Origin: Actinomyces procaprae
GTDB taxonomy: Bacteria; Actinomycetota; Actinomycetes; Actinomycetales; Actinomycetaceae
Length of the DNA stretch: 64,000 nucleotides
Assembly (NCBI RefSeq): GCF_004798665.1
Contig: NZ_CP039292.1
Coordinates: 1,550,001 to 1,614,000, forward strand
Reading direction: 5' to 3'
Shown here piece after piece: positions 4,060-30,947 of the stretch. Both the position numbers and the translations under genes were made by a program. Numbering within the stretch: the stretch's first letter is position 1; every line of letters starts with the position of its first letter. The notes beneath the pieces are model-generated. The model did no database searches and was not told the origin of the DNA. It saw only the letters and a program-made list of their open reading frames with translations.

Positions 4060-4929
4060 GTGACAAGTTCCGTACCTCCCGCCCCCGGTATCAGTCGCCC
4101 CTTGCTGCCGTCAGCGCCCATAGACCTGCGCCTGGTCGTCTCGGACATGGACGGCACGCTGCTCGACGGAAACGGCCTGCTGCCGGCCGGTTTCGCCGAC
4201 GCCGTCGCCCGCATGCAAGCGCACGGAGTGCTGTTCGCCCCGGCCTCCGGTCGCCAACTCGCCAACCTGCGCGCCGTGCTCGGTGAGGCGGTGTCACGCT
4301 CACCGATCATCGCTGAGAACGGCACCCTGGTGGTTCAGGGCGACCAGGTGATCCACTGCGAGACGATAAGCGTCGATGACACGATCGCCGCCGTCGACAC
4401 CACCCGCGACCTGCGCATCGACGGCTACGACGTCGGCGCCGTCCTGGCCGGAGTCGACTGCGCCTACATCGACCGGCAGGACCCGCCGTTCGTGGAGGAG
4501 GTCTCCCGCTACTACCACGAGCTCGAGGTAGTCGACGACCTGCTGGCCGTGCCACTGGACCGCACCCTGAAGGTGGCCGTCTACGACTTCGGCGACGTCG
4601 AGGCCGGCAGCTCCCAGGCACTGAAGACCGCCGTCCCCGGCGTTCAGGCCGTGGTCTCCGGCGAGCACTGGACCGACCTCATGCCCCGTGCCGCGTCCAA
4701 GGGCCGGGCACTGGCCGCCCTACAGGAGCGCACCGGCATCACCCCGGAGCAGACGGCGGTATTCGGTGACTACCTCAATGACTTGGACATGTACGACCAC
4801 GCCGCACTGTCCTTCGCCATGGCCAACGCCCACCCCGGCATTCAAGCCGTCGCCCACTGGATCGCGCCGGCGAACACTGACAACGGGGTCCTGCGCACCA
4901 TCGACGTCCTGCTGGACCGGCTCGGCTGA
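4060..4929 (+). CDS. Cof-type HAD family hydrolase
   Basis: A 289-residue haloacid dehalogenase-type phosphatase of the Cof/YidA group, expected to act on small phosphorylated metabolites in the cytoplasm. Motif I is D29-M-D31-G-T, motif II serine is S63 (ASGR), motif III lysine is about K214 (SKGR) and motif IV is GDYLND (about 236-241). The start chosen is GTG at 4060, about 20 residues before the first beta strand; the frame stays open upstream but that sequence looks non-coding. The substrate cannot be named. Confidence 0.87.
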   Translation: MTSSVPPAPGISRPLLPSAPIDLRLVVSDMDGTLLDGNGLLPAGFADAVARMQAHGVLFAPASGRQLANLRAVLGEAVSRSPIIAENGTLVVQGDQVIHCETISVDDTIAAVDTTRDLRIDGYDVGAVLAGVDCAYIDRQDPPFVEEVSRYYHELEVVDDLLAVPLDRTLKVAVYDFGDVEAGSSQALKTAVPGVQAVVSGEHWTDLMPRAASKGRALAALQERTGITPEQTAVFGDYLNDLDMYDHAALSFAMANAHPGIQAVAHWIAPANTDNGVLRTIDVLLDRLG

Positions 4930-4999
4930 CGCCGATCCGACCCGGCGCTGCCAGGGCCAGTAGTCCTGCTGTACGCGGCGCCACACCGGGCGCCACTGC

Positions 5000-6070
5000 T
5001 CAACACGGGCTGTTCAAGGCCGCTCCCAATGCGGACACGGCCTCAGCGCGAAAGTCCCGCATGGCGGCCGACCAGGTGCAGTAGTCGGCTCCGTGATACA
5101 TACCCGGCTCCACTCGCAGCTGGACGCGCGCCCCGGCCTGACGCAGGCGCTCGGCATATGCGCGGTCATCATCCAGGAACAGATCCAGCTCCCCGACGCC
5201 GATCCAGGCGTCCGGCAAGGCGGACAGGTCCTTGCGCCGTGCCGGCACCGCCCAACGGCCCAGCGCCGAATCCGGGGCGTCGGACGGGGGCGGGGCGGAC
5301 TGGACCGGGCGACCCAGATAGGCGCCCCAGCTCTCGGCATTGCGGCGGGCGGTCCACACGAACTCTCCGCGCCCGGGAGTCTCCACTCCGCCGGCGCCGG
5401 TACGGTCATCTAGCATCGGGTAGATCAGGAGCTGGAAGGCGAGGGGGATGCCCTCATCCAGAGCGCGTTGCGCCAGGGCTGCGGCCAGCCCGCCGCCGGC
5501 GCTGGCGCCGCCTACGGCGATCCGCGCGGGATCCACGCCCAAGTCGTCGGCCCGGTGCCCCAACCACCGCAGGACCGCGTCGGCGTCGTCCAGGGCGGCG
5601 GGGTAGGGATGGGCCGGAGCGAGCCGATAGTCGACAGAAACCACCAGGATGCTCAGCTCCCGTGCGATGCGGGAGCACAGTAGGTGGTCCTGGGCCGGGC
5701 TGCCCCCGACGTGTCCGCCGCCGTGGAGCCAAATCAGGGCGCCGCTGGGTGAGGCCTGCTGACGGTTCGCAGCCTCATAAACCCAGACAGGAACCTCCCG
5801 TCCCTGCCAGGATGCGGTCTCACGTCTGCCCAGGCGGGCGGGGAACACTCTCGCAGGAAGTCGGTTTGACAGCAGCGTGGAGAAGTCGGCGGGCAGGTCC
5901 TCAGGCTCCCCGGACTGCCCCCGGCCGATCACGAGCAGAGGGGCCCGCAGCTCATGGGCAACGCGTTCCAGCCCGGGTCCCAGCTCGCGGCGGCGAACCG
6001 CCAACGCCCCCACAGCGCTGAGGGCGACGATCGTGGCAGCGCCGAGGGTGGCGCGAGCGGATGGCGGCAT
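5000..6070 (-). CDS. Alpha/beta hydrolase of the HSL / carboxylesterase type
   Basis: A 356-residue esterase with an N-terminal hydrophobic segment (about 8-25) that may anchor it in the membrane. The oxyanion-hole motif HGGG is at 116-119, the nucleophile elbow G188-A-S190-A-G192, the likely acid D296 and the histidine H326. This is the hormone-sensitive lipase arrangement, so small acyl esters are the likely substrates. The ATG at 6070 has GGAGC upstream. It lies 12 bp after the S4 protein gene on the same strand, so they are probably co-transcribed. It converges with the HAD gene; a weak 6-bp hairpin (4977-4994) lies between them. Confidence 0.85.
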   Translation of the reverse strand: MPPSARATLGAATIVALSAVGALAVRRRELGPGLERVAHELRAPLLVIGRGQSGEPEDLPADFSTLLSNRLPARVFPARLGRRETASWQGREVPVWVYEAANRQQASPSGALIWLHGGGHVGGSPAQDHLLCSRIARELSILVVSVDYRLAPAHPYPAALDDADAVLRWLGHRADDLGVDPARIAVGGASAGGGLAAALAQRALDEGIPLAFQLLIYPMLDDRTGAGGVETPGRGEFVWTARRNAESWGAYLGRPVQSAPPPSDAPDSALGRWAVPARRKDLSALPDAWIGVGELDLFLDDDRAYAERLRQAGARVQLRVEPGMYHGADYCTWSAAMRDFRAEAVSALGAALNSPC

Positions 6071-28430: not shown

Positions 28431-28772
28431 TGAGACTCCTTGGTGTCTCCGGAGGTGATCCTCGCTGGCGGATGGTGCGGCAAGGCGGATCCGCTCAGTT
28501 GGACCGGGTGCGTTCGGCTACCCGCTCTACACGGTGCCCGAAGCGCCCGGGGTTTGCGTGCGAGGGGCGTGCGAGCCCCGTAGGAGAGTGGTCTAAGCCG
28601 CCTGCGAGCCACGGTGTGACTTGGTGGGACGTGTGGACGGGGCGCTCGGCGCAATCGTGAAATGACATAATGTACATTATCGGCGAGCGTTGGGTGGTGT
28701 CGCGTGAGTCTGTTCGGTGCTTGACAGCGACATTACGGTGCAAAGCGAGAATCAGATTGGCGAGGTGATCAC
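28431..28772. other. Intergenic region between ABC permease and ART-like gene
   Basis: 342 bases without a gene, between divergent genes. Contents: a hairpin GGGGC-GTGCGA-GCCCC (28564-28579), the AT-rich palindrome at 28667-28680 and a perfect TTGACA (28721-28726) oriented toward the ART-like gene, without a good -10 at standard spacing. Composition becomes AT-richer toward the right, marking the edge of the accessory patch. Confidence 0.5.
28667..28680. promoter_or_regulatory. Perfect 14-bp palindrome ATAATGTACATTAT
   Basis: ATAATGTACATTAT is fully self-complementary and stands out in high-GC DNA. It lies 93 bp before the ART-like gene and 237 bp before the ABC permease start, so it could be an operator for either. 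No regulator is immediately adjacent. Confidence 0.5.
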
Positions 28773-29909
28773 GTGATGCGAGATGAGACTGGACTGCCCT
28801 ATAGGCGCGTTCGAGTGCATCGTCCATGGGCGTGGTGTTGGTGGCCTGTCCAAGATTTGATCGACCAGGATCCAGACGTCGCCGACAGCCATGAGCCTCG
28901 AATGATCGGCACGGTGGACGTCGACTGGTCGGTGGTGCTACAGGCTGTCCGATACGCCATCGACAAGTGCTGCAAGCTGGGCGCAGAAGCTATTCGCCAG
29001 AAGTCGGTCGAGGTTGAGTTGCCCATGCCGCTGCGGCAGGTCGAGTATGACCTGGTTGACAGTTGGGTCGGTGCCGATATGCCGGTTACCTACTGCTATG
29101 AGGACGATGAGATCGTAGACGGCCGTCACCGTCTTTGGCTCACTCGACCATATGCTGCTGGCGATGGGCTGGTGCCGCTGATTGCAGAGAACCTGTGGTA
29201 TCTGGATGATGTGTTTACGGGTAGGGCTGATGCAGCTGTCTGTCTTGAATCGCTCGACAGTGCTCGCTTATGGTGGGATAGTGCCGACGGAACACTGCGT
29301 CGTAGCAATAGCTACCACTGCCGCCAACTTGCCGACGCCTACGCCGAACTCACCGTCCCGGAGCCGGTGCCAGCGTACTGGTTTCAGTACCTTCACGACT
29401 GGGACGACGCATTACCGCGACTTGCTGAATTGCATCTTGCTCACCGAACGGACCAGAACCTCCTCGGGTACGCCCTGCCTTCCGCATGGCGGTTCCGCCA
29501 AGACCGCTACGGGCTGGATCCTCAACTCGTCATCGACATGTTCCGCACTATGGCCGGCCTCAACGGCTTCACGATGTGGGGCGAGCCGGCCCCGCGCCCG
29601 CGAGGTCGGTTGACGCTATTCCGTGGTGCAACCTCAGCGAACCGGTGCGGCCCGTCTTGGACCGTTGACCCCAGCGTCGCCCGTTACTTCGCCAACTCCA
29701 GGCAATCGCCTGGGGCCATGGCCACAGTCTGGGTCGCTCAGATTCCCGCTGATCGCCTACTCGCCTACTTCCCAGATGAGCGCGAATTCATCGTCGACCT
29801 CACTGGCGCTGATCACCTCGTACACCCCGCTCCCCCATCTGCCCGCTCTCATTGGCTCACTCGTTGGCGCAGTCAGCGACTTCGACGCTTCGAGGGTCGT
29901 GGCGCCTGA
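28773..29909 (+). CDS. Putative ADP-ribosyltransferase-fold protein with ParB-like motif
   Basis: A 378-residue protein I do not recognise as a named family. The C-terminal part carries an ordered set of ADP-ribosyltransferase signatures: R284 in LTLFRGA, S295-W-T297 followed by VDPSVARYFA, and E336-R-E338 in the ExE position, spaced as in R-S-E type transferases. Around 110-122 the segment EIVDGRHRLWL resembles the DGxHR motif of ParB/Srx-like domains. No signal peptide or membrane helix, so it acts in the cytoplasm or is delivered another way. GTG 28773 or ATG 28776 with GAGG upstream. Base composition is lower in GC than flanking genes, suggesting acquisition. A toxin or nucleic-acid modifier is possible; no immunity gene is evident. 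Confidence 0.55.
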   Translation: MMRDETGLPYRRVRVHRPWAWCWWPVQDLIDQDPDVADSHEPRMIGTVDVDWSVVLQAVRYAIDKCCKLGAEAIRQKSVEVELPMPLRQVEYDLVDSWVGADMPVTYCYEDDEIVDGRHRLWLTRPYAAGDGLVPLIAENLWYLDDVFTGRADAAVCLESLDSARLWWDSADGTLRRSNSYHCRQLADAYAELTVPEPVPAYWFQYLHDWDDALPRLAELHLAHRTDQNLLGYALPSAWRFRQDRYGLDPQLVIDMFRTMAGLNGFTMWGEPAPRPRGRLTLFRGATSANRCGPSWTVDPSVARYFANSRQSPGAMATVWVAQIPADRLLAYFPDEREFIVDLTGADHLVHPAPPSARSHWLTRWRSQRLRRFEGRGA

Positions 29910-30090
29910 TCGTATTAGGCGGTCGTAGGCGGTTTCTTAGACGGCCAGGCGAATTCCACTAAAGAATGTGCTTCTTGTCGTGGCGCCGGACCGTGCGGCA
30001 GCCCCATCGGAGACGAGATGTCAATGTCTCTGACAAGCGCCGTCACCCAAATCTGGAAGGATGGGGTTGGTACGGGCGGCCGGCGAGCGC

Positions 30091-30285
30091 CTACTTCCCG
30101 TAGCGGCGATGGACGGCCTGCTTGCTGATGCCCAGCGCGGCGCCGATGGCCGTCCAGCTGTGGCCGGCGTTGCGCGCCCGGCGCACGGCGACCTCCTCGG
30201 CGGCGTCGAGCTCTCTGCGCGCACGCACGATGCGTCCAAGCTCCTTCAGCGGTGCGTCGTCGTCGGCGCCAATCAAGGTCTTCAT
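30091..30285 (-). CDS. Small helix-turn-helix regulator
   Basis: A 64-residue protein that is little more than one DNA-binding domain: a helical N-terminus with LKELGRIVRARRELDAAEEVAVRRAR and a C-terminal HTH with HSWTAIGAALGISKQAVHRRYG. An upstream ATG (30309) would add eight residues, but the ATG at 30285 sits exactly seven bases after a TAAAAT -10 box, so I take it as the start of a leaderless mRNA. An inverted repeat over that -10 box suggests autorepression. It lies between the ART-like gene and the broken hydrolase, facing away from the latter. Confidence 0.75.
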   Translation of the reverse strand: MKTLIGADDDAPLKELGRIVRARRELDAAEEVAVRRARNAGHSWTAIGAALGISKQAVHRRYGK

Positions 30286-30322
30286 GGCGTCAATTTTAGT
30301 TGACTTCATGGTGGTGTGGCAA
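30286..30322 (-). promoter_or_regulatory. Promoter and operator of the small HTH gene
   Basis: On the minus strand TTGCCA (30317-30322), 18 bp, TAAAAT (30293-30298), then seven bases to the ATG. The inverted repeat GTCAA-N6-TTGAC (30289-30304) covers the -10 box. Confidence 0.65.
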
Positions 30323-30346
30323 GCTCAACGAACTAGCATTCTCCCT

Positions 30347-30947
30347 ATGACGAGGGCCACAGTGCGTGAATGGATGGGCAATGTCTCCAATGCGGATGAC
30401 GAGCGGTGTCTGTTGGTCCTGCCGGGCCTGAACTACCCGGCGCAACTTCCCGGGCTGTACCTGCCGATGCGTGCGCTGTCGCTCGAAGGGTGGAAAGTGT
30501 TTCATGGGCAGTGGGAGCTGGCTGATCTCAGTGCACCCGAGCGTCGCGCCGCCGTAAGCGAAGCCGCTGCGGAGTTCGTCTGCCGTACCGCTGGAGCAGG
30601 TCGGCGTCTGATCATGGCGAAGTCGCTGGGTAGGTACCTTGGCTGCTGGTTGTGCGGCCGACCATGCGATCCCGGCAGTCTGGGTTACTCCGTTGCTCCG
30701 CGACGACAGGTGTGTCCGTGATATCGCGCGTTCCAGCGCGCCGGCGCTGCTGGTTGCCGGAAGTCGCGACTGGGCCTGGGATGACGCGGTCGCCAGGCGG
30801 ACCGGCAAGCGGCGGCTGCAGCTGGGTACTTGCGATCATGCACTGCTGACCGGCGATTGGCGGGAGGAGGTTGAGATGCTGGAGGTGTTGACGAGTGCGG
30901 TTGCTGACTTCGCGCGCGACTTTACATGTGTAAACTCGGGGGTGTGA
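30347..30947 (+). pseudogene. Alpha/beta hydrolase broken by a 4-bp duplication
   Basis: Begins at ATG 30347 (ATVREWMGNV...) and runs in one frame to LIMAKSLG, then homology continues one frame later: TLAAGCAADHAIPAVWVTPLL, ALLVAGSRDWAWDD and a terminal CDHALLTGDW histidine motif. At the junction the DNA reads CTGGGTAGGTACC, where GGTA is tandemly duplicated (about 30628-30635); removing one copy rejoins the frames exactly. The second frame ends at 30947, overlapping the TetR start as GTGA. Intact homologues are about 200-residue cytosolic hydrolases. A two-copy repeat is probably a fixed mutation, though slippage could restore it. Confidence 0.75.
30921..30936 (+). promoter_or_regulatory. 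Operator and leaderless -10 of the TetR-SDR-lactonase operon
   Basis: TTTACA-TG-TGTAAA (30921-30934) is an inverted repeat overlapping the -10 box TAAACT (30931-30936), which lies seven bases before the GTG at 30944. Placement implies TetR autorepression. Confidence 0.6.

Follow-up and report, generated by a model that had tools for sequence, protein, structure and literature searches.

The stretch of DNA analysed here (the window, 64,000 nucleotides of Actinomyces procaprae contig NZ_CP039292.1) contains, at 28773..29909 on the plus strand, a gene for a two-domain protein that combines an N-terminal domain bearing a DGRHR motif with a C-terminal domain bearing the signature of ADP-ribosyltransferases (ARTs). 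The gene is located between an ATP-binding cassette (ABC) transporter gene of the FtsX type and a small helix-turn-helix (HTH)-like gene. According to the list of open reading frames (ORFs) and its translation, it encodes 378 amino acids, and it has homologues, including a full-length one on a plasmid. GTG 28773 and ATG 28776 are the candidate starts; a putative ribosome-binding-site-like stretch, GAGGTGATC, can be read directly upstream of them (28762..28770, plus strand). Residues 15-25 (VHRPWAWCWWP) are conserved among homologues and require an upstream start, so P0002, a shorter database call of this same gene beginning at Met44, is too short. The Yimella plasmid record (L005 19989-21125) has its gene annotated from 20157, so that 56 codons are missing from the N-terminal end, and with them the conserved VRTPWAWCWFP region. 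A promoter scan of the plus strand from 28400 to the gene gave no sigma-70-like match, and the genome contains no second copy. A preliminary description, made from the sequence alone, had placed R284 (in LFRG), S295-W-T297 with a following A..FA helix, E336-x-E338 and a DGRHR motif near residue 117 in this protein. The translation has all of them, as R284, S295-W296-T297 with A303..F306-A307 after it, E336-R337-E338 and D116-G-R-H-R120. It had also described the gene as lower in GC than its neighbours, rightly: the ORF has a GC content of 0.609 versus 0.700 for the window, and its third codon positions (GC3) have 0.652 versus 0.811-0.901 in seven neighbouring genes.

A protein search with the window protein (E <= 1e-3) matched 14 proteins. 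One is P0002, the shorter call of the window gene. Eleven are other proteins that align over 87-99% of the query with identities of 39-70% (P0005 among them starts at residue 50), and P0012 and P0015 are pieces lying on one 3310-base contig and probably represent one split gene. An alignment-based search added two fragments, P0016 and P0017. Judging by sequence, the window ORF is no chance pattern but one member of a protein family. Scans of the window protein against Pfam and NCBIfam found no model, and a PDB sequence search no chain, at E <= 1. FRG domain (which we take to be PF08867) membership was rejected, as the Pfam match is absent both for the window protein at E <= 1 and for 22 scanned family members; the scan of these members gave only three other weak matches, each in a single protein (E 0.025-0.61). 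Among 38880 PHROGs one, phrog_4776, which carries no functional label, weakly matches residues 280-341 of the window protein (E 3e-4). The PADLOC model PDC-S15 matched the window protein at E 0.031 and P0018 at 5.1e-4, with an alignment of only about 35 residues; of the other six proteins submitted, five had no match and the sixth weakly matched a different model. Pattern matches to the full-length family numbered 94 in GTDB genome contigs and 36 in viral contigs, none of which was confirmed. Within a phylum sample of 396 genomes the full alignment was found in one, the window's own, as was the ART alignment, and only the window's own genome among 49 of the genus has the full-length gene. The family is unnamed and mainly actinobacterial.

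The ART-like beta domain covers residues 278-352 (29604..29828, plus strand). Its conservation was assessed in a hand-chosen ART alignment of 61 rows and in a 96-row alignment of all 95 database proteins found, in which the window's own gene is counted twice. R284, the first residue of the arginine-serine-glutamate (R-S-E) signature (29622..29624, plus strand, strand 1), is present in 61/61 and 93/96 rows, the others being gaps, and G285 is also kept in all 61. The second motif, S295-W296-T297 (29655..29663, plus strand, strand 2), has Ser in 58 rows (Ala in three), Trp in 61 and Thr in 42 (Ser in 18) of the 61. Each Glu of the third motif, E336-R337-E338 (29778..29786, plus strand, start of strand 5), is found in 60/61 rows, and D342 in 58/61. 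All four residues (R, S, E, E) are present in 84 of the 96 rows; the remaining 12 comprise three N-terminal fragments without an ART part, three frame-broken or cut sequences, three with Ala for Ser, two of the 61 hand-chosen rows with one Glu changed, and P0098, a NUDIX fusion in which Ser replaces the first Glu. The R-S-ExE signature reported in the preliminary description is therefore real and conserved. Arg, Ser and ExE fall on the predicted strands expected for them (beta1, beta2 and beta5). The ART-domain model has a predicted local distance difference test (pLDDT) score of 94.0, and 45 of the 50 matches listed in its structural comparison (VIA) are ART-superfamily structures. For the whole-protein model, Foldseek found nothing at E <= 0.001 and the VIA list consists mostly of helical matches to residues 138-224. 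Of the PDB searches made with profiles, one returned four matches at E 0.26-0.56, which we take as chance, and the others gave nothing. An ART-like fold is strongly indicated.

The usual second motif of R-S-E enzymes is STS. The window protein differs from known R-S-E protein ARTs (ExoS/ExoT, C3, Vis) in having SWT, and a sequence search of the PDB with the ART profile retrieved no chain at E <= 10. ExE motifs usually accompany arginine acceptors and are typical of transferases, which weighs against two other assignments of the domain. One is an NAD+ glycohydrolase or small-molecule ADP-ribosyltransferase, which would deplete NAD+ or make an ADP-ribose derivative; we find it rather unlikely. 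It is favoured by the relative P0098, in which a NUDIX hydrolase is fused to the domain and Ser replaces the first Glu of ExE, and by Tse6, an NADase toxin, which is among the structural matches listed, though at a root-mean-square deviation of 6.4-7.2; against it, precomputed Pfam domains (NUDIX) occur in only one of the 84 ART-profile proteins. The other, modification of nucleic acid (tRNA or DNA) and not protein, we hold to be unlikely. PMC9503650 gives H-H-h as the catalytic set of the clade that contains RNA-repair enzymes and the tRNA 2'-phosphotransferase KptA/Tpt1, whereas the window protein has R284, S295 and E338 in an R-S-ExE arrangement, so identity with KptA/Tpt1 was rejected; closeness to KptA may merely reflect its small size. 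The present data do not distinguish between these two assignments and the modification of protein.

Relatives of the ART part occur in phages. P0026, a plasmid-borne ART of Curtobacterium, matches phrog_4776 at E 4e-20, and tblastn with it gave matches at E <= 0.01 in 57 phage records out of 50,697 (Mycobacterium phages in 55 cases, Gordonia phages in two); the queries P0001, P0024 and P0023 matched none of these records, and a scan of viral contigs with P0026 gave one pattern match, which was not confirmed. Three phages, JoeDirt, LeBron and Archie, were opened. Their proteins are phrog_4776 members and score 36-47 bits against the bacterial ART profile; the highest score among 900 shuffles was 11.2. 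When nine sequences were aligned, R, W-T and ExE did not vary, and Ser is present in eight rows, including all three phage rows. The phage proteins share these residues with the window protein but lack the DGRHR domain and have another, helical N-terminal part. For the three genes the nearest tRNA gene is 26-643 bases away. Mycobacteriophage genes of phrog_4776 (L072 2051-2788, L071 2027-2755 and L073 2087-2803) carry the R-SWT-ExE signature and are annotated as hypothetical. LeBron gp117 (245 amino acids), which shares only about 24% identity with the ART part of the window protein, was listed as having no known function ("NKF") and given a cytotoxicity score of 1, a mild effect with smaller colonies, in an overexpression screen in M. 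smegmatis (PMC13148394). As its main text contains no word beginning with "ribosyl", that paper seems not to propose ADP-ribosylation.

The N-terminal half contains an alpha/beta core (residues 78-138, 29004..29186, plus strand) with the predicted order strand-helix-strand-strand-helix-strand in the AlphaFold2 secondary structure, and is followed by a mostly helical region (residues 139-274, 29187..29594, plus strand, also from AlphaFold2) that separates the two domains. The DGRHR motif occupies residues 116-120 (29118..29132, plus strand). Across the 15 N-domain rows P34, W52, L87, W98, G117, H119, W122 and P135 are invariant, R118 and R120 are each kept in 14, and D116 in 12 (Asn in two, Ser in one). 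A near full-length homologue, P0008, carries SGQHQ at this place, so the gene can persist without an intact motif. The DG-x-HR motif and, as predicted, the order of four strands and two helices resemble those of the ParB/sulfiredoxin (Srx) superfamily (Osa, DdrB-like ParB, Tox-ParB) in PMC3482391 and PMC5512222. This order is seen in the model of the whole protein. An hhalign comparison with one ParB family, the chromosomal ParB of the genus and relatives, scored 10.8, a value surpassed by at least 10 of 40 column shuffles (best 15.3); the short local match is in register at the motif. The search of 100 genomes for PF08857 gave none, hence no ParB comparator of the DGHHR type. The ParB/Srx likeness proposed in the preliminary description holds for the motif and may extend to the predicted strand order; it fails for profile similarity to chromosomal ParB and for a Pfam match. 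Since the hhalign score is beaten by shuffles, we call the domain ParB/Srx-like and do not assign it to the superfamily.

The two halves are also found separately. Eight of 72,556 plasmid records were matched by tblastn: one full-length homologue (Yimella sp. cx-51, 47% identity), six with the ART part only and, from Dietzia, one that has just the N-part. A search with this N-domain protein of Dietzia matched six plasmid records, and the new N-domain-only proteins (196-241 amino acids) come from Clavibacter sepedonicus (two, one opened), Cellulosimicrobium and Glutamicibacter; one of the 49 congeneric genomes also has the N-domain alone. The ART-part profile collected 84 proteins, 72 of them of 150-225 amino acids, from Streptomyces, Kitasatospora, Amycolatopsis and others, called "hypothetical protein" wherever the source names them; P0098, the NUDIX fusion, has 349. 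A Streptomyces-type ART alignment confirmed 11 loci in GTDB genome contigs. On the Clavibacter sepedonicus plasmid pCSL1 (L025) the N-domain-only gene (4793-5383) comes after a small gene annotated as a VbhA-family antitoxin (4398-4586), an annotation absent beside the N-domain genes of Dietzia, Cellulosimicrobium and Glutamicibacter. The Dietzia (L010 8004-10405) and Yimella (L005 29477-31790) plasmids each have an EcoRI-family adenine methyltransferase gene adjoining a DUF262 gene, about 1.4 kb from the Dietzia N-domain gene and about 8.4 kb from the Yimella full-length gene.

The plasmid contexts bear on a role in fertility control or competition between plasmids, where the ParB/Srx-like half would target DNA in transfer and the ART half the machinery that transfers it. 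The Yimella gene sits between a gene for a 602-amino-acid plasmid protein and a MobA/VirD2-type relaxase gene, and N-domain-only proteins occur on plasmids. Osa is a plasmid fertility inhibitor. Its ParB-like domain has ATPase and DNase activity, as given in PMC5512222. Since ParB homology is unproven and no transfer genes were seen among the neighbours scanned, either in the window or at a few Streptomyces loci, we consider this role improbable. Still more doubtful, in our opinion, is that the protein is exported as a toxin or forms one member of a toxin-antitoxin pair. Secreted polymorphic systems often contain ART toxins (PMC3482391), and the structural matches listed include ParT-ParS, a toxin-antitoxin pair with an ART; the N-terminus of the window protein does not look like a signal peptide by eye, it has no Pfam secretion leader domain, and at 18 ART-gene loci (with flanks of about 6 kb at most of them) no partner family, nor any family except ART and overlapping frames, is common to more than two loci.

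The flanking genes, searched in 49 congeneric genomes, were examined in four relatives (G457, G409, G454 and G407). In all four the FtsX-type and small HTH-like genes are adjacent without the window gene, and G457 and G409 further retain the stretch from a TetR gene to a lactonase gene on the right. Alignment to the relatives shows that identity ends at 28685-28686 on the left and resumes at 30087-30091, with 9 to 92 bases between these junctions in the relatives (87 in G457) versus about 1400 in the window. A 9-bp direct repeat, CGGCGAGCG, marks the junctions (28681..28689 and 30081..30089, plus strand); in a rough simulation the chance of a repeat this long at such a junction was about 8 in 10,000. 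The window gene is the sole gene of the insert, in which neither a transposase nor terminal inverted repeats were seen. With the empty sites, the 9-bp repeat, the low GC3 and the occurrence in 1/49 and 1/396 genomes, the gene was probably gained recently as a foreign single-gene insert. To the left lies an operator-like stretch (28659..28685, no strand assigned), palindromic around ATAATGTACATTAT, upstream of the FtsX-type gene and nearly unchanged in the four congeneric genomes without the gene. To the right, a gene at 30122-30947 (plus strand) looks broken into overlapping frames (30122-30721 and 30639-30947) that have no Pfam match and appear alpha/beta-hydrolase-like by eye.

Overall, we lean towards the view that the gene product is an intracellular R-S-E mono-ADP-ribosyltransferase with a DNA- or nucleotide-binding N-domain, serving as mobile cargo in conflicts between elements and hosts. 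The sequences show the family, its conserved residues, its modularity and the insertion; we infer its activity, target, N-domain role and use in conflict as follows. R284, S295 and E338 would bind NAD+ and make it reactive, with E336 orienting the acceptor, and ADP-ribose would be moved onto a macromolecule of the cell or the invader, altering growth or the establishment of an element. The DGRHR N-domain may, like domains of the ParB/Srx type, bind nucleotide or DNA and may place, gate or switch the enzyme. The gene travels as cargo and would be used in conflicts between mobile elements and their hosts. In a more specific version, which seems to us quite unlikely, the ParB/Srx-like half would sense DNA or nucleotide arising from element entry or replication and then release the R-S-E ART, the ART unit being reused alone by phages against hosts and by plasmids or chromosomes against invaders or competitors.

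A parallel in architecture is offered by polyvalent proteins of phages and conjugative elements, which have several domains, ART and ParB-type ones among them. Polyvalent proteins carry ARTs of the H-Y-D type, and Alt/VIP2-family R-S-E ARTs are reported to be absent from genuine members (PMC5512222), whereas the window protein is short, two-domain and R-S-E; membership among polyvalent proteins was rejected. We found no description of an R-S-E ART combined with a ParB/Srx-like domain in what we read of the openly licensed literature, and for R-S-E ARTs the combination is absent from the available part of that survey. The preliminary description, which knew of no named family with this architecture, holds in this respect and as to Pfam and NCBIfam models, with the qualification that phrog_4776 matches the ART part; its interpretation as a whole is partly supported.

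The finding points to an unnamed ART family common to actinobacterial chromosomes, plasmids and phages, and to a single protein that links an R-S-E ART with a ParB/Srx-like domain. It also supplies an enzymatic hypothesis for a mycobacteriophage gene that was scored as cytotoxic and had no known function.
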